In this document: one piece after another, positions 2,502 to 7,901 of the stretch | How the letters are laid out: each line of letters starts with the position of its first letter | Position numbering within the stretch: the first letter of the stretch is position 1 | Assembly (NCBI GenBank): GCA_003973585.1 | Contig: QNYN01000145.1 | Span: forward strand, 1-7,901 | Length of the DNA: 7,901 bases | Direction: 5' to 3' | Source of the DNA: Fusobacteriota bacterium | GTDB lineage: Bacteria; Fusobacteriota; Fusobacteriia; Fusobacteriales; Fusobacteriaceae | The notes under the pieces: model-generated | What the model was told of the DNA's origin: nothing | Database searches by the model: none | What the model saw: the letters and a program-made list of their open reading frames with translations, nothing else | Translations under genes and position numbers: made by a program

Positions 2502-2530
2502 TTTACAGTAAAAAAAATATATGCTATAAT
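2502..2530 (+). promoter_or_regulatory. Sigma-70-type promoter of the methionine operon
   Basis: The -35 box TTTACA (2502-2507) and -10 box TATAAT (2525-2530) are separated by exactly 17 bp. A TG one base upstream of the -10 box (TGCTATAAT) makes it an extended -10. The expected transcription start is near 2537, giving a leader of about 230-250 nt before hom. In an AT-rich genome chance matches are common. This one is nearly consensus, correctly spaced, and lies just upstream of a leader ORF and attenuator, so it is well supported. Confidence 0.85.
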
Positions 2531-2586
2531 GTTTAAAAATAAAAACAATAGTAATAAATAAAAAAATAAAAAGTGAGCTGATCGAT

Positions 2587-2640
2587 ATGAAAAACTTAGA
2601 AATCAGACAATTAAATATGACAATGATGATGATGCTTTGA
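2587..2640 (+). CDS. Methionine-rich leader peptide of the hom-metY-metF-metA-lysC operon
   Basis: A 17-codon ORF encodes MKNLEIRQLNMTMMMML and ends in TGA. It starts about 50 nt after the predicted transcription start. An AAGTGAG sequence at 2571-2577 offers a moderate ribosome binding site with a 9-nt spacer. Five of its last seven codons are ATG: codon 11, then codons 13-16 in a row. Methionine is the end product of the downstream operon. Leader peptides rich in the regulated amino acid, followed by competing hairpins and a terminator, are the hallmark of trp-, his- and ilv-type attenuation. The peptide itself probably has no function; its translation would measure charged Met-tRNA. The sequence is directly visible; its role is inferred. 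Confidence 0.82.
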   Translation: MKNLEIRQLNMTMMMML

Positions 2641-2643
2641 TTA

Positions 2644-2683
2644 GAGTTTGGAACTTAAATTTTTTAGATTTAAGAACAAACTC
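2644..2683 (+). promoter_or_regulatory. Attenuator hairpin 1:2 (predicted read-through state)
   Basis: GAGTTTG (2644-2650) pairs with CAAACTC (2677-2683), and CTTAAAT (2654-2660) pairs with ATTTAAG (2668-2674). The two helices are separated by a small GAA/AA internal loop and capped by a 7-nt loop. Segment 1 begins only 3 nt after the leader-peptide stop codon. A ribosome at the stop would mask it, whereas one stalled on the upstream Met codons could leave it free. The hairpin competes for segment 2 with hairpin 2:3. Pairing was done by eye. Confidence 0.65.
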
Positions 2684-2710
2684 GTTTTGTAATAATTTAC
2701 GAGTTTGTTC
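2674..2710 (+). promoter_or_regulatory. Attenuator hairpin 2:3 (anti-antiterminator)
   Basis: GAACAAACTCGT (2674-2685) and ACGAGTTTGTTC (2699-2710) form a perfect 12-bp inverted repeat with a 13-nt loop. No U-tract follows, so it is not itself a terminator. It uses the same segment 2 as hairpin 1:2 and the same segment 3 as the antiterminator, so it can coexist with the terminator but not with either alternative. The perfect helix is seen directly; its place in the switch is inferred. Confidence 0.72.
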
Positions 2711-2744
2711 ACAAGCATCTTAACAGAAAGCCTGTGGAAAACTC
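2701..2744 (+). promoter_or_regulatory. Candidate antiterminator 3:4
   Basis: GAGTTT (2701-2706) pairs with AAACTC (2739-2744). After one bulged G (2707), TTCACA (2708-2713) pairs with TGTGGA (2733-2738) using one G-U pair. After an A-C mismatch, GC (2715-2716) pairs with GC (2730-2731). That is about 14 pairs around a 13-nt loop. It consumes almost the whole 5' arm and loop of the terminator, so the two cannot coexist. It is less perfect than hairpin 2:3 and was found by hand, so it needs thermodynamic folding. Confidence 0.55.
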
Positions 2745-2764
2745 CACAGGCTTTTATTTTTTTT
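2727..2764 (+). terminator. Intrinsic terminator of the met leader (attenuator)
   Basis: A 12-bp stem, AAAGCCTGTGGA (2727-2738) with TCCACAGGCTTT (2743-2754), closes a 4-nt AAAC loop. It is followed by a T-rich tract broken by a single A, to 2764. It is GC-rich for this genome and is a textbook Rho-independent terminator. It lies between the promoter and hom, ending about 20 bp before the hom start. It would stop the operon unless disrupted, which points to regulated premature termination. Confidence 0.93.
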
Positions 2765-2783
2765 AAATATTTGGAGGTAAAAA

Positions 2784-3743
2784 ATGAAAATTGGAATTAT
2801 TGGAATTGGTACTGTAGGGAGAGAAGTTCTTAATATTATTTCTTCTCAAAGGGAAAAAATTGAAAACTTTTTAGGAGATGAAATAGAAATTATAAAAATT
2901 TGTAATAGAACTCCTAGGGAAGAATATAAAAATTATTCATTTACTTCAGACTACAGAGAAGTTTTAAATGATAATTCTATAGATACTGTAATTGAATTAA
3001 TGGGAGGAATAGAAATTCCTTTAGAGATTGCTAGAGAAACTTTAAAAGCTAAAAAGAATTTAATTACAGCTAATAAAGAACTTTTAGCTATTCATGGAAA
3101 AGAGTTATTTGAATTAGCTAAGGAAAAAGAAGTGAAAATATTTTTTGAAGCAGCTGTAGGAGGAGGAATTCCAGTATTAACTCCACTAAAAGAATCACTT
3201 TTCCCAAATAATTTTAAAAAAATAAGAGGGATACTAAATGGAACTGCTAATTATATATTAACTCAAATGAGTGAAGGTGCTAGTTATGAAAGTGCTTTAG
3301 AAGATGCAACTAAAAAAGGATATGCAGAAGCTGATCCAACATATGATGTAGAAGGTATTGATACTGCTCATAAAATTAGTTTACTTAGCTATTTAGCATG
3401 GGGAGATTTAGTAGAATTTGATAAAATAAAGACAGAAGGAATAACAAAGTTATCGCTAGAAGATATAGAGAATGCAAAGAAAAATAATAAAAGATATAGA
3501 TTATTAGGAGAAGCAGTTATAGATGAAAAAACAAAAAAAGTAACTTTATCTGTTTCACCAAAGTTAGTAGAAAAAGGAGAAATCTTCTATGAAGTTAATG
3601 GTGTATATAATGCTGTTGAAATAGAAGGAAGTTATACAGGAAAGACAATATTTTATGGTGAAGGAGCAGGGGGATCTGCTACAGCAAATGCTGTAATTTC
3701 AGATATTTATAAAATAGCAAATAGTAGAAGTTGGCAAAGATAG
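2784..3743 (+). CDS. hom: Homoserine dehydrogenase, short form lacking the C-terminal ACT domain
   Basis: It catalyses NAD(P)H-dependent reduction of aspartate semialdehyde to homoserine, the branch-point step towards methionine and threonine. The Rossmann motif GIGTVG occupies 7-12. TANKELLA (N97, K98), AAVGGGIP (123-130), NGTANYIL (from 152) and the catalytic signature EADPTYDVEGIDTAHK (E182-K197) are all present; the final Lys and the acidic residues bind substrate. It ends at 319 aa, right after the GEGAGGSATANAVISD segment that closes the catalytic fold. Many bacterial homologues run to about 400-430 aa with an ACT domain for threonine inhibition, which is absent here. The stop is followed by a clean ribosome binding site for the next gene, so this looks like a natural short form. 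GGAGG (2773-2777) sets the start. It is the first gene after the attenuator. Confidence 0.95.
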   Translation: MKIGIIGIGTVGREVLNIISSQREKIENFLGDEIEIIKICNRTPREEYKNYSFTSDYREVLNDNSIDTVIELMGGIEIPLEIARETLKAKKNLITANKELLAIHGKELFELAKEKEVKIFFEAAVGGGIPVLTPLKESLFPNNFKKIRGILNGTANYILTQMSEGASYESALEDATKKGYAEADPTYDVEGIDTAHKISLLSYLAWGDLVEFDKIKTEGITKLSLEDIENAKKNNKRYRLLGEAVIDEKTKKVTLSVSPKLVEKGEIFYEVNGVYNAVEIEGSYTGKTIFYGEGAGGSATANAVISDIYKIANSRSWQR

Positions 3744-3788: not shown

Positions 3789-5060
3789 ATGGCATATAAA
3801 TTTGAAACATTGCAACTACATGCAGGACAAGTAAAAGACACTTTAACAGGAGCTAGAGCAGTACCTATTTATCAAACAGCATCATATACTTTTAAAGATA
3901 CAGATCATGGAGCTAGATTATTTAATTTAGAGGAAGAGGGAAATATCTATACAAGGATAGGAAATCCTACAACTGAAGTATTAGAAAAAAGAGTAGCAGC
4001 ATTAGAAGGTGGAGTAGGAGGATTAGCAGTAGCATCAGGATCAGCAGCTATAACTTATGCTTTACTTACCATAGCAAAAGTAGGAGATGAAATAGTTTCA
4101 GCAAAGGGAATATATGGTGGAAGCTATAATTTCTTATCTAATACAATAGAAGATTTTGGAATAAAAACTAGATTTTTTGATACTAATAATCTAGAAACAT
4201 TAGAAAAAGCCATAACTCCTAAAACAAAAGTTATCTTTATAGAAACATTAGAAAATCCAACAGGACAAATTGTAGATTTAGATAAAATATCAGAGATAGC
4301 TAAAAAATATAAATTGCCTTTAGTAGTTGATAATACATTTGGGACACCATATTTAATAAGACCTATTGAACATGGAGCAAATATAGTAGTTCATTCAGCA
4401 ACAAAATTCTTAGGAGGTCACGGAACAACAATAGCTGGTGTTATTGTAGATGCTGGAAATTTTGACTGGAAAGATGAAAAATTTGAATCATTTAATATTC
4501 CAGATCCTGGATATCATGACTTAGTTTATTCTGATTTAGGAGAACAAGCATTTATAGTAAAAGCTAGAGTTCGTTTATTAAGGGATACAGGAGCAGCACT
4601 TTCACCCTTTAATGCTTTTTTAATCTTACAAGGGATAGAAACGCTTTCTCTTAGAGTAGAAAGACATGTGGAAAATTCAAGAAAGGTTGCTGAATATTTA
4701 AGTAACCATCCAGAAGTAGAGTGGTTAACACACCCAGAATTTACTACAGAAGAACAAAAAGAATTGGCAAAAAAATATTATAAAAAAGGTGTAGGATCTA
4801 TATTTACTATTGGATTACACGGTGGTAAAGAAAGAGCAAAAAGATTTATAGAAAGTTTAGAAATATTTTCTCATTTAGCAAATGTAGCTGATGCCAAATC
4901 ATTAATTATTCATCCTGCTACTACAACACATGGTCAATTAAGTGATGAACAATTAGAAGCAACAGGAATAAAACCTAATATGATAAGAATTTCAATAGGG
5001 TTAGAAAATATAGATGATCTTATAGGAGATCTAGAAAATGCAATAAAAAAATCTAAATAA
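3789..5060 (+). CDS. metY: O-acetylhomoserine sulfhydrylase (aminocarboxypropyltransferase)
   Basis: This PLP enzyme of the Cys/Met metabolism gamma-family combines O-acetylhomoserine with sulfide to give homocysteine and acetate, assimilating sulfur directly. The PLP lysine is K206 in HSATKFLGGHG, and the Asp that contacts the pyridine nitrogen is D181 in VVDNTFGTP. YTRIGNPT and ASGSAAI supply phosphate-binding elements. The opening ETLQLHAGQ and the 423-aa length with an extended insertion (GYHDLVYSDLGEQAF) are typical of O-acetylhomoserine sulfhydrylases rather than of the shorter cystathionine synthases and lyases. It starts 8 nt after AAGGAGG (3774-3780), 45 bp after hom. The acetyl-type MetA in the same operon would supply its substrate. 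Confidence 0.95.
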   Translation: MAYKFETLQLHAGQVKDTLTGARAVPIYQTASYTFKDTDHGARLFNLEEEGNIYTRIGNPTTEVLEKRVAALEGGVGGLAVASGSAAITYALLTIAKVGDEIVSAKGIYGGSYNFLSNTIEDFGIKTRFFDTNNLETLEKAITPKTKVIFIETLENPTGQIVDLDKISEIAKKYKLPLVVDNTFGTPYLIRPIEHGANIVVHSATKFLGGHGTTIAGVIVDAGNFDWKDEKFESFNIPDPGYHDLVYSDLGEQAFIVKARVRLLRDTGAALSPFNAFLILQGIETLSLRVERHVENSRKVAEYLSNHPEVEWLTHPEFTTEEQKELAKKYYKKGVGSIFTIGLHGGKERAKRFIESLEIFSHLANVADAKSLIIHPATTTHGQLSDEQLEATGIKPNMIRISIGLENIDDLIGDLENAIKKSK

Positions 5061-5088: not shown

Positions 5089-5964
5089 ATGAAAATAAAA
5101 GATTTGTTTAAAAAGAAAAAAACATTAATATCATTTGAGATATTTCCACCAAATAAAAAATTCCCAGTGGAAAAAATATATAAAGTTATCGATGAATTAG
5201 CAGATTTAAAACCTGATTATATAAGTGTTACATATGGAGCAGGTGGAACTACTCAAGGTAGAACAGTAGAGATAACAAAGAGAATAAAAAATGTAAACAA
5301 TATAGAAACAATGGCTCATCTAACTTGTATAGGAGCAACTAAAGAATCTATAGATGAAACTTTAGCACAATTAAAAAATAATGGTGTAGAAAATATTTTA
5401 GCACTTAGAGGAGATATACCTAGAGATCAAAAACATGATTCATATTTTAGTTATGCTAGTGACTTAGTAAAACATATAAAACAAAGTGATGATTTTTCTG
5501 TAGCAGGAGCTTTTTATCCAGAAGTTCATTTTGAAAATAATGATTTATTAGATCTTTTTAATTTAAAAACAAAGGTAGAAGCAGGAACAGACTTTTTAGT
5601 TTCACAACTATTTTTTGATAATGAAGATTTTTATGCATTTAGAGAAAAAACTAAAAAAATAAATATTAATGTTCCTTTAGTAGCAGGAATATTACCTGTA
5701 ACAAATTATAAGCAAATTCAAAAGATAAAGGAACTTTGTAATGCAAGAATTCCTAGAAAATTTCAAGTTATCTTAGAAAAATTTAAAGATAATCCAAAGG
5801 CTTTAGAAGAAGCAGGAATAGCCTTTGCTACCGAACAAATTATAGATTTAATTGCTTCTGGAGTAGAAGGAATTCATATTTATACAATGAATAAATCAGA
5901 TGTAACTAGAAAAATATTAGAGAATATAAAACACATTCGTGAAAGTATCGAGGAGGTAGAGTAA
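5089..5964 (+). CDS. metF: Methylenetetrahydrofolate reductase
   Basis: This FAD-dependent TIM-barrel enzyme reduces 5,10-methylene-THF to 5-methyl-THF, the methyl donor for the last step of methionine synthesis. Family motifs appear in order: SFEIFPP with the catalytic Glu E17, SVTYGAGGTTQ (46-56), HLTC (77-80), LALRGD with D109, FYPEVH (142-147), SQLFFDN with Q173, and PLVAGILPV. The length of 291 aa matches bacterial MetF. AAGGAG (5076-5081) lies 7 nt before the ATG. The last codons contain GAGGAGG, which appears to be the ribosome binding site for metA, so the two genes are probably translationally coupled. Methionine synthase itself is not in the window. Confidence 0.96.
   Translation: MKIKDLFKKKKTLISFEIFPPNKKFPVEKIYKVIDELADLKPDYISVTYGAGGTTQGRTVEITKRIKNVNNIETMAHLTCIGATKESIDETLAQLKNNGVENILALRGDIPRDQKHDSYFSYASDLVKHIKQSDDFSVAGAFYPEVHFENNDLLDLFNLKTKVEAGTDFLVSQLFFDNEDFYAFREKTKKININVPLVAGILPVTNYKQIQKIKELCNARIPRKFQVILEKFKDNPKALEEAGIAFATEQIIDLIASGVEGIHIYTMNKSDVTRKILENIKHIRESIEEVE
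5950..5956 (+). promoter_or_regulatory. Ribosome binding site for metA inside the metF 3' end
   Basis: GAGGAGG is the strongest Shine-Dalgarno match between metF and the metA core. It lies 9 nt before the ATA codon at 5966, an ideal spacing, and ends 5 nt before the metF stop codon. It has no other in-frame ATG, GTG or TTG to serve, so it decides in favour of the unusual ATA start. Confidence 0.75.
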
Positions 5965-5965
5965 A

Positions 5966-6802
5966 ATATCTATTCTATGTAATAATAATTTAAGAGGTAT
6001 AGAAGAGTCTAAAAAAACTGGTATTATTTTTGAAAATAATACCAGTTCTGAAAAAAGTATAAAAATAGGAATAATAAATTTAATGCCTTTAAAAGAAGAA
6101 ACAGAAACTCAATATTTTAATCTCTTAGGTAGGTACAATAAAATTATTGAAATAGAATTTTTATATCCAGATACTCATATTTCGAAAAATACATCCATGG
6201 AATATTTGAAAAAAAATTATATACCATTAAGTAAATTAGAAGAAAGAAATTATAAAGGGTTAATTATAACAGGAGCTCCTGTAGAAACTCTAGAATTTGA
6301 AGAAGTTAATTATTGGGAAAATTTAAAAACAGCATTTGATTTAGATATTCCTAGTGTGTTTATTTGTTGGGCTAGTCAAGGTGCTTTATATCACCATTAT
6401 AAAATTTTAAAATACCCATCAAAAGAGAAGATATTTGGGATCTTTAATCATAGTGTTACTAAAAATCCTTTGATTCCTTTGGAAAATTTTGATGCACCAC
6501 ATTCTAGACACACATACAATAAAAAAGAAGATTTATTAAAAGCAGATCTTTTAATAATAGGAGAAAATGAAAAGGCAGGAGTATATATGTCTGCTACAAA
6601 AGACCTAAGAAATATATATATAGCAGGACATGGAGAATATAGTATCGATACTTTAGATAAAGAATATAAAAGAGATCTACAAAATATTCCTGAAAATTAT
6701 TATAAAAACGATGATCCCACTAAAGAAATATTATTTACTTGGGATAAACATAGGGAAATTCTATATAAAAATTGGATTGAGATAATAGAAAAAGAAATTT
6801 AA
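5966..6802 (+). CDS. metA: Homoserine O-acetyltransferase, MetA family, probable ATA start
   Basis: It transfers an acyl group from CoA to homoserine, committing it to methionine. Numbered from ATA 5966 (278 aa), the nucleophile is C134 in ICWASQ. The partners are H222 and E224 in GHGEY, with K43 in NLMPLK. E107 in GAPVE is the position where Glu marks acetyl-CoA users and Gly succinyl-CoA users, so acetylation is predicted, matching metY. The first ATG (6083) would start inside NLMP and delete the first core strand. From ATA, the N-terminus SILCNNNLRG aligns without gaps to the usual MetA opening (PINIPTHLPA in Bacillus, from memory). No ATG, GTG or TTG lies between the upstream in-frame stop (5957) and 6083. 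A base-call error (ATG read as ATA) is possible. Function is firm; the start codon is less so. Confidence 0.9.
   Translation: MSILCNNNLRGIEESKKTGIIFENNTSSEKSIKIGIINLMPLKEETETQYFNLLGRYNKIIEIEFLYPDTHISKNTSMEYLKKNYIPLSKLEERNYKGLIITGAPVETLEFEEVNYWENLKTAFDLDIPSVFICWASQGALYHHYKILKYPSKEKIFGIFNHSVTKNPLIPLENFDAPHSRHTYNKKEDLLKADLLIIGENEKAGVYMSATKDLRNIYIAGHGEYSIDTLDKEYKRDLQNIPENYYKNDDPTKEILFTWDKHREILYKNWIEIIEKEI
6016..6047. repeat. 15-bp perfect inverted repeat near the metA 5' end
   Basis: AACTGGTATTATTTT (6016-6030) is the exact reverse complement of AAAATAATACCAGTT (6033-6047), with only TG between. On the + strand no T-tract follows. On the - strand the hairpin is followed by a run of seven T, so it resembles an intrinsic terminator for antisense transcription. 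If metA starts at 5966, the repeat lies within codons 17-28 and encodes part of KTGIIFENNTS. It may modulate metA translation or block antisense transcripts. Confidence 0.8.
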
Positions 6803-6822: not shown

Positions 6823-7901
6823 GTGGGAATTATTGTTCAAAAATTTGGAGGGACCTCTGTAAAAAATACAGAACGAATATTAGAAGTTGCTAGAAAAGTT
6901 ATAGAAAGAAAAAAAGCAGGTGATGAAATAGTAGTAGTTTTATCAGCTCAAGGTGGATATACAGATATTCTTTTAGAGAAAGCACATAAAGTTTCAAGTC
7001 ATCCTAAAAAAAGAGAATTAGATGTACTTTTATCAACTGGAGAACAAATTTCTATAGCTCTTTTAGCTATGGCAATAGAAAATTTAGGAGAAAAAGCTAT
7101 TTCATTTACTGCATCACAATTAGAAATAAAAACTTGTAGTAATCATAATTGTGCTCAAATTATAGATATAAATAAAGAAAAATTAAAAACTGCATTAGAT
7201 GATGGATATATAGTAATAGTAGCAGGATTCCAAGGAATAGACTCTAATGGAAATATAACAACTTTAGGTAGAGGTGGATCTGATACTACAGCTGTAGCTT
7301 TAGGAGTAACTTTAGATGCAGAGGAAGTAGAAATTTATACAGATGTTGATGGTGTCTATTCAGCAGATCCTAGGATAGTTAGAGATGCAAAAAAAATAAA
7401 GACAATTGCTTATAATGAAATGATTGAAATGGCTGGAAATGGAGCTAAAGTTTTACATACTAGAAGTGTAGAATTAGCTTGTAAATACAACATAAAAATA
7501 CATTTAAGATCCTCATATACATGGGAGGAAGGAAGTATTATCAAAGGAGAAGATAAGATGGAAAAACAAGTAATTAGAGGAATTACCCACAGTAAAAATT
7601 TATCTAAAATAACTTTAAGAGATACTCCACATAAATTAGCAGATGTTATTAGTACATTAGCTAATAGAGGATTAAATATAGATATTATCACTCATGATTT
7701 TGATCCTGAAAGGGGAGCTACAATATCTTGTGTTTTAAAACAAGATATATTAGATAGATATGATGATACTCTTAATATCTTTACCCTTACTGCTCCTACA
7801 GGTATCGGAAAAACTCTGACATCGTTAGAGTTAGCTTTGAAAATCCAAGAGAAGAGACAGCTGAGTAAAATTGTGTATATCTTGCCATTTACCTCTATCA
7901 T
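6823..7901 (+). CDS. lysC: Aspartate kinase, interrupted in its ACT domain and fused in frame to a Cas3 fragment
   Basis: Aspartate kinase phosphorylates aspartate, the first step towards Lys, Met and Thr. The GTG start follows GGAGG (6810-6814) with an 8-nt spacer and begins VQKFGGTS (5-12). Other motifs are STGEQIS (71-77), GRGGSDTTA (149-157) and TDVDGVYSADPR (173-184). HTRSVELACKYNIKIHLRSS closes the kinase domain, and an ACT domain begins near VIRGITHSKN (250). Lysine-type homologues have about 400 aa and two ACT domains. Here the similarity stops near residue 307-308 (ISCVLKQD, about 7746), partway through the first ACT. The same frame continues as Cas3-like sequence to the window end. 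There is no sign of a fused ThrA-type dehydrogenase domain, which fits the separate hom gene. The kinase part is certain; the native C-terminus is missing here. Confidence 0.93.
   Translation, partial: MGIIVQKFGGTSVKNTERILEVARKVIERKKAGDEIVVVLSAQGGYTDILLEKAHKVSSHPKKRELDVLLSTGEQISIALLAMAIENLGEKAISFTASQLEIKTCSNHNCAQIIDINKEKLKTALDDGYIVIVAGFQGIDSNGNITTLGRGGSDTTAVALGVTLDAEEVEIYTDVDGVYSADPRIVRDAKKIKTIAYNEMIEMAGNGAKVLHTRSVELACKYNIKIHLRSSYTWEEGSIIKGEDKMEKQVIRGITHSKNLSKITLRDTPHKLADVISTLANRGLNIDIITHDFDPERGATISCVLKQDILDRYDDTLNIFTLTAPTGIGKTLTSLELALKIQEKRQLSKIVYILPFTSI
7747..7901 (+). CDS. cas3: Fragment of a CRISPR-associated helicase Cas3, Walker A region, incomplete at both ends
   Basis: In the frame of lysC, the sequence after about 7746 reads DRYDDTLNIFTLTAPTG, then IGKT, a run of ALKIQEKRQLSK, and IVYILPFTSI at the window edge. 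APTGIGKT is the Walker A motif of a superfamily 2 helicase. IFTLTAPTGIGKTLTS followed about 20 residues later by YILPFTSI is characteristic of Cas3, the nuclease-helicase that degrades DNA in type I CRISPR-Cas. The N-terminal HD nuclease domain expected upstream is absent and replaced by aspartate kinase. G-ending codons rare upstream appear here (CTG, TCG, TTG, AAG, CAG), and a hand count gives about 42 G or C in the last 110 bases, higher than the neighbouring genes. Another SF2 helicase is possible but less likely. Confidence 0.75.
   Translation, partial: MLDRYDDTLNIFTLTAPTGIGKTLTSLELALKIQEKRQLSKIVYILPFTSI

Follow-up and report, generated by a model that had tools for sequence, protein, structure and literature searches.

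A predicted methionine-codon leader-peptide attenuator ahead of a methionine operon in a Psychrilyobacter-like fusobacterium, with related leaders across Fusobacteriota

The trp, his, thr and leu attenuators of Escherichia coli have in common a leader peptide with cognate codons, alternative hairpins, and a terminator ahead of a biosynthetic operon. Methionine control is usually exerted through MetJ, SAM riboswitches, or T-boxes. In the accessible text of the papers compared here, leader peptides are described in Proteobacteria, Actinobacteria, and bacilli. The candidate uORFC-8-2, ahead of cysS in Rhodobacterales, and other uORF candidates of the same paper (PMC8632094) resemble the leader described here in that cognate-codon attenuation is predicted ahead of an aminoacyl-tRNA synthetase or biosynthetic gene, but uORFC-8-2 belongs to another bacterial group and another amino acid; that paper covers Fusobacteria among its phyla, and the word "methionine" is absent from its main text, although a related motif may stand in its supplements. 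The His leader peptide of hisZ/hisS copies in bacilli, which takes the place of a T-box (PMC2965389), is also a codon-run leader outside Proteobacteria and Actinobacteria, but it differs in host group (bacilli) and amino acid (His), and the string "fusobacteri" does not occur in the main text of that paper. The fthC motif (PMC11109978) is similar in having a uORF proposed to sense methionine supply, but the proposal involves the initiator tRNA in Streptococcus, and the accessible text shows no run of Met codons; the same paper lists a trpB motif of Firmicutes and Fusobacteria as a riboswitch candidate for which an attenuator is possible too. The accessible text of PMC1262725 reports that Met operons in Actinobacteria lack conserved upstream RNA structures, and that of PMC4833913 cites a 2010 survey of attenuators by Lopatovskaya and others. 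Judged by title and the start of the abstract, no paper on a Met leader peptide or on Fusobacteriota attenuators appeared among the matches listed, subscription papers being outside the scope of the search.

The window analyzed here, that is, the whole stretch of 7,901 nucleotides, comes, judging from its sequence, from a Psychrilyobacter-like fusobacterium, and its Hom protein is 79% identical to that of P. atlanticus. Identical Hom proteins also gave the identity of genome G056 (P. atlanticus) and of G009, one of the Cetobacterium-type genomes (Cetobacterium sp.). The leader region sits between a HAD-hydrolase gene and hom, and the features are as follows.

1651-2433, HAD-hydrolase gene
2502..2530, plus strand, promoter TTTACA-17-TATAAT with an extended -10 (TG before the -10), 11 of 12 consensus bases
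2571..2583, plus strand, weak ribosome-binding region AAGTGAGCTGATC of the leader ORF
2587..2640, plus strand, leader peptide ORF MKNLEIRQLNMTMMMML, 17 codons, stop at 2638-2640
2631..2639, plus strand, segment 0, GATGCTTTG, end of the Met run, pairs with X (hand pairing and a group-level swap test)
2644..2650, plus strand, segment 1, GAGTTTG, pairs with 2677-2683 (hairpin 1:2)
2654..2674, plus strand, hairpin A (2654-2661 with 2667-2674), nested in 1:2
2675..2684, plus strand, segment 2, AACAAACTCG, pairs with 2700-2709 (hairpin 2:3)
2700..2709, plus strand, segment 3, CGAGTTTGTT, alternative partners segment 2 or segment 4
2712..2719, plus strand, segment X, CAAGCATC, pairs with segment 0 (hand pairing)
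2727..2763, plus strand, intrinsic terminator, 11-bp stem 2727-2737/2744-2754 and U-tract
2734..2744, plus strand, segment 4, top of the terminator 5' arm and loop, antiterminator with segment 3
2784..3743, plus strand, hom, homoserine dehydrogenase, 319 residues, NF004976 over cut-off
3789..5060, plus strand, metY, O-acetylhomoserine sulfhydrylase, TIGR01326 over cut-off
5089..5964, plus strand, metF, methylenetetrahydrofolate reductase, TIGR00676 over cut-off
5966..6802, plus strand, metA, homoserine acyltransferase, best families MetA models, all below their cut-offs
6823..7773, plus strand, aspartate kinase (lysC), model over its cut-off in the profile search as for hom, metY and metF; likeness to relatives ends at about 7773, with helicase-like sequence beyond

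Two peculiarities of the operon deserve mention. There is no ATG, GTG, or TTG upstream of 6083 in metA, and its probable start is the ATA at 5966, found 8-9 bases downstream of AGGAGG/GGGAGG (start region 5951-5968). G056, G061, and five Cetobacterium-type genomes share this ATA after AGGAGG/GGGAGG with the window; in G057, the codon at precisely this position is ATG (comparison loci L259, L260, L263, L267, L268, L269, and L271). An AUA start codon conserved on metA seems likely; G056 and G061 offer, as an alternative start, a TTG eight codons downstream. At the other end, within 7773-7901, the frame of the aspartate kinase enters helicase-like sequence (Pfam ResIII), and its likeness to the G056 and G061 kinases ends at residue 311-317, perhaps because the contig end is chimeric.

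An earlier note on this DNA had proposed a promoter, a 17-codon Met-rich ORF, three overlapping hairpins, and an intrinsic terminator just ahead of hom. The promoter, the ORF, and the terminator are all in place. Since the promoter scan of 2300-2900 gave two promoter-like sites against a mean of 3.4 in shuffles, the case for the promoter rests on the quality of its match and on its recurrence, as TTTACA-17/18-TA...T, in the five relatives checked. The terminator scan found one terminator-like site against 0.1 expected in shuffles. Met codons occupy 2617-2619 and 2623-2634 of the leader ORF (MTMMMM, ahead of the hom-met operon), and none of 500 dinucleotide shuffles of 2434-2783 had a short ORF with at least five Met in six residues. 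Hom-type leaders have a weak ribosome-binding site; AAGTGAGCTGATT stands upstream of the leader in G056, G061, and G057. The three hairpins are present as well, but that part of the note was incomplete, having overlooked hairpin A and the 0:X pairing; the Met regulon and the phylum-wide family described below also go beyond it.

We propose, with a probability of roughly 0.87, that this leader is a ribosome-mediated transcription attenuator that would sense the supply of charged elongator tRNA-Met ahead of a Met operon. It combines a short ORF with a weak ribosome-binding site upstream of the operon, a conserved run of codons for the product amino acid, mutually exclusive hairpins with an antiterminator (with some group exceptions), an intrinsic terminator before the first gene and, by computation only, a fold that shifts with ribosome position as predicted before the terminator closes. 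With plentiful Met, the ribosome would reach the stop at 2638-2640 and mask segments 0 and 1; 2:3 would then form, tying up segment 3, so that the terminator folds and transcription ends. With scarce Met, the ribosome would stall on the Met run (2617-2634), covering segment 0 and leaving segment 1 free; 1:2 would form, segment 3 would pair with segment 4 ahead of synthesis of the terminator 3' arm, and transcription would continue into hom-metY-metF-metA-lysC. If no ribosome is present, 0:X may close over the region and keep 3:4 off. In contrast to the E. coli attenuators, the window leader would sense Met, the top of its terminator together with the loop serves as segment 4, it has the extra 0:X pairing, and one scaffold serves several amino acids in Fusobacteriota. 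Since the stall site lies upstream of segment 1, a stall would free both 1:2 and 3:4, unlike in the E. coli type. The mechanism, being ribosome-mediated attenuation, is ordinary in principle; as far as our searches reach, the novelty appears to lie in the amino acid sensed, in the bacterial group concerned, and in a scaffold that is shared among leaders and whose codons can be exchanged.

Relatives were sought through hom. A query of genome contigs with the single Hom protein found no relative, an alignment query with hom returned distant phyla and one Psychrilyobacter contig, and two distant hom genes on viral contigs were left unused. Among 98 Fusobacteriota genomes, 60 had a hom relative at E<=0.001. 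Up to 450 bases 5' of 48 hom loci (L081-L128; the hom of L081 is truncated, and L090 has only 202 bases upstream) were screened for a short ORF in which four or more residues in a stretch of seven were Met, Thr, or Cys, and besides the window only G056 and G061 were positive, with the ORF MVNSRIGQLNMLMMMLW at the same distance from hom as in the window. A pattern search of the phylum and the loci fetched extended this set. Leader, hairpins, and terminator stand before the hom operons of the window, G056, and G061 and before metY-metF in G057, and the module also precedes metN in G056, G057, G059, and G001, a metN fragment in G058, and metG in G056 and G061. A first covariance model added the metN leader of G061 and the metY leader of G059. 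For the metN representative, MetN was the best family in the profile search, below the curated cut-off. Pattern matches within coding genes or without a leader, as seen for L151 and L152, were dropped. The leaders of Psychrilyobacter type are built of QLN, a Met run, and then L or LW. The conservation on which the earlier note had made its claim depend is thus found, the Met-rich ORF and hairpins being kept before hom (in two genomes), metY, metN, and metG. Since the same module precedes these genes, the window leader belongs to a putative Met regulon, which on this sequence comparison spans synthesis, uptake, and tRNA charging.

Covariation was assessed in 11 aligned Met-leader members, all close relatives. 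The OFF structure (hairpin A, 2:3, and terminator) was formed in 100% of the cells and the ON structure (1:2, A, and 3:4) in 97.9%. Hairpin A was paired in all 11 sequences, but with seven of its eight pairs invariant this conservation alone tells little. Double changes were found in 2:3 at columns 77:111 (GC 7, AU 4) and 80:108 (GC 6, GU 4, AU 1) and in 3:4 at column 108:150 (CG 6, UA 5, one UA row lying inside the metN group); none was found in 1:2 among the 11 members. The change in 3:4 is arguably the most telling of these, although it may reflect reversion or exchange between copies, since hom-type leaders have the U-A pair too. Segment 3 and the terminator loop read GUCUGCC and GGUAGAC in metN/metG leaders, GAGUUU and AAACUC in hom-type leaders, and GUUUGCC and GGCAAAC in the metN leader of G059. 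In these sequences, the loop tracks segment 3, as a putative antiterminator requires; one mismatch interrupts the hom-type 3:4 (at 110:148, 4 of 11 rows are unpaired). Of 500 shuffles, 3 matched the covariation score for ON and 0 that for OFF; with the ON structure slid by three columns, the score was still 0.111 against 0.137 in place. Two other measures did not exceed the shuffles: pairs changed on both sides (as high in 424/500 for ON and 221/500 for OFF) and further pair types (500/500 and 473/500).

Weak matches of the first model included leaders of the same build with other codons. A second model, made from 32 of 38 sources (omitting the near copies L207, L211, L166, L169, L171, and L220), gave 87 matches at E<=0.01 in 42 of the 98 Fusobacteriota genomes, 31 of them its own members. 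As a negative control, the same model was applied to 40 genomes from other phyla (40 of 79 available loci) and yielded no match at E<=0.01, an empty answer that by itself proves nothing. Two matches proved to be known leaders read on the opposite strand (L143 plus, L144 plus). Family counts rest on 76 of the 87 matches, and a leader ORF with a codon run or cluster lies at the model start in 74 of them (43 of 45 when own members are excluded); the two others are a bare terminator (L176, in G098) and a masked leader (L255). The 74 leaders comprise 33 with Met or Met/Cys codons, 16 with His, 11 with Tyr, 10 with Asn, 2 with Pro, and 1 each with Thr/Ile and aromatic codons. In most of them, whether Met, His, Asn, Tyr, Pro, or others, the codons fit the downstream gene.

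Met leaders occur in 19 of the 98 genomes among the matches examined. The downstream gene is visible for 31 of the 33: metN in 15 (one a fragment), metY in 7, metG and hom in 2 each, and aspartate kinase, metE, metA, a family-5 solute-binding protein, and a sulfite-reductase-like gene in one each, the leader of the last having Met and Cys codons. His leaders precede hisZ in 4 cases (the HisZ representative fell below the NCBIfam cut-off in the profile search) and a family-3 binding protein in 12. All 10 Asn leaders precede asnA and all 11 Tyr leaders an AGCS symporter; the Pro leaders, L242 (G055:C4) and L248 (G010:C4), are short clusters (NNSPIMP and RQPIPPR) instead of runs and precede a PutP-like symporter, by eye; the aromatic leader precedes DAHP synthase, and the Thr/Ile leader asd. 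Downstream genes were assigned by profile searches for 12 representatives and otherwise by eye from N-termini (including PutP and the metA of L254), and the leader codons suggest which substrates the Tyr-leader symporters and the His-leader binding proteins would take. The Asn codon runs, from ten Fusobacteriota genomes, reach 12 in a row (L174, L223-L226, L241, L246, L247, L249, and L253). At L236 (G045:C2, 396-934), a tandem glycine riboswitch lies between the Thr/Ile leader (MFRLTITTTIIIM) and asd.

We aligned 68 of the 77 sites (76 matches and the window), leaving out L176, L220, L240, L242, L244, L248, L250, L254, and L255. The 0:X pairing joins GAUG(C)UUUGG to CCAAACAUC in metN leaders, GAUGCUU(U)G to CAAGCAUC in hom leaders, and CUUUGGGAG to CUCCCGAAG in Cetobacterium-type leaders; in His-transporter leaders, the His codons themselves are segment 0. 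When partners were exchanged among nine analyst-defined groups (62 of 68 rows distinct, two groups with a single sequence), all four pairings became weaker on average. Values as low as the native one were reached in 9 of 20000 permutations for 0:X, 8 for 1:2, and none for 2:3 or 3:4, and the native partners beat the swapped mean in 6, 9, 8, and 8 of the 9 groups, respectively. The exceptions were the Tyr, Thr/Ile, and aromatic groups for 0:X, the Thr/Ile group for 2:3, and the His-transporter group for 3:4, and in the window's own group the margin for 1:2 is small (-9.6 against -9.4 swapped). This final test used wider windows than the first run and a group-level permutation; with the narrow windows, 2:3 failed in the Cetobacterium group and 3:4 in the Tyr and His-transporter groups. 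The success of 2:3 is favored by an alignment fitted to the OFF structure, of which 0:X, 1:2, and 3:4 are not part. TTTTG directly follows segment 2 (window 2685-2689) in 50 of the 68 leaders, in every group except His-transporter (0/8); it could act as a pausing signal or belong to the loop.

The effect of the ribosome was modeled by ending each leader where the terminator 3' arm begins and keeping the bases under the ribosome unpaired during folding. At 37 C, with 64 distinct leaders of the 68, the best of several stall positions ("best stall") raised 3:4 above the stop state by more than one pair in 59 of the 64 at this end point and in 58 when three more bases were included. The earlier note's direction of switching is reproduced by this folding for the window, where the ribosome at the stop favors 2:3 (n23 10.3, n34 0.6) and the best Met stall 3:4 (n23 4.7, n34 5.4), with a smaller shift for the mean over stalls (n23 6.8, n34 3.3). 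A previous run with 11 Met leaders at 25 C (the 37 C run used a slightly shorter 5' end) gave the same behavior of the window at the stop and in the stall on the second Met of the run. Two leaders departed from this at 25 C: in the metN leader of G056 there is hardly any switching (n34 does not exceed 1.3, whatever the stall), and in the metY leader of G005 a ribosome at the stop does not prevent 3:4 until the RNA is four bases longer. When the complete terminator 3' arm has been transcribed, the terminator prevails whatever the state of the ribosome in all 11 leaders (25 C), so any switch must be kinetic, operating during transcription, as known attenuators do.

The ribosome-free state is a sharp question because Met starvation should limit initiation too. 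The window RNA then folds into 1:2 and 3:4 at 25 C and into 2:3 at 37 C (n23 8.8, n34 0.5). In the folding without a ribosome, 0:X closes and 3:4 is held off in metN leaders, in most metG leaders, and in one of two set-ups for the window; the idea that absence of the ribosome always means read-through was not upheld, since members and set-ups differ.

Nascent-peptide arrest in response to a ligand is known from TnaC-like systems, and the conserved QLNMMMML could stall the ribosome on Met or SAM and not on uncharged tRNA. All 13 Psychrilyobacter-type leaders retain QLN (preceded by R in 9 of them) and all 17 Cetobacterium-type leaders retain KTTMMNMM, as might be expected of such an arrest peptide; however, the stretch is nearly invariant in DNA too, as RNA constraints would give, the peptides of other members are unrelated and share only the gene-fitting codon run (His, Asn, or Tyr), and, in the geometry of the window, a ribosome arrested when ligand abounds would regulate a biosynthetic operon in the wrong direction. 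We therefore consider this explanation unlikely.

Still less probable is control of the operon by a SAM-I riboswitch or a tRNA-binding T-box leader, with the Met-rich ORF incidental. Both types of element are usual controls of Met genes, and both occur in the phylum: SAM-I riboswitches are found in 83 of the 98 genomes, and T-box matches at E<=0.001 in 20, with one each in G056, G057, G058, G059, and G061, all carriers of Met leaders. However, the T-box score exceeds its cut-off in only 2 of the 98 (a strict cut-off, passed by 2 of 14 control genomes in which 5 give a signal), the covariance models of SAM-I (RF00162) and T-box (RF00230) have no match in the window, and no Rfam family reaches its gathering score there. 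Moreover, the Rfam matches at 12 loci of relatives are confined to tRNAs and a glycine riboswitch that lie outside the leaders, and the Met codons of the ORF are kept before several different Met transcription units. The SAM-I riboswitches of G056, G061, G057, G059, and G001 (one each; L197, L198, L194, L196, and L195) stand before the same ECF transporter S-component-like gene (Pfam check for the G056 copy) and not before metK; in five other genomes, a metK-like gene follows the copy in four (by eye), and the contig ends in one.

There is equally little to recommend reading the hairpins as an ordinary terminator of the HAD-hydrolase gene, with hom under its own promoter: the terminator between the two genes is strong, but a recognizable promoter lies upstream of the leader, the scan of the window found none between terminator and hom, and a module with the same hairpins recurs before metN, metG, and metY.

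Attenuation by a ribosome that reads Met codons thus remains the preferred reading, and the related leaders suggest that attenuation is a modular device in Fusobacteriota, reading Asn, Tyr, and Pro among others. It seems to us somewhat probable that one ancestral Fusobacteriota scaffold (codon run, segments 0-1-A-2-3-X-4, and terminator) was copied before many amino-acid genes and its codons exchanged (Met, Met/Cys, His, Asn, Tyr, Pro, Thr/Ile, and aromatic). The 68 aligned natural variants are material for testing the role of each pairing. If the ancestral scaffold is true, the 0:X pairing would be a built-in test of codon occupancy, and the family would be a phylum-level counterpart of the T-box system.
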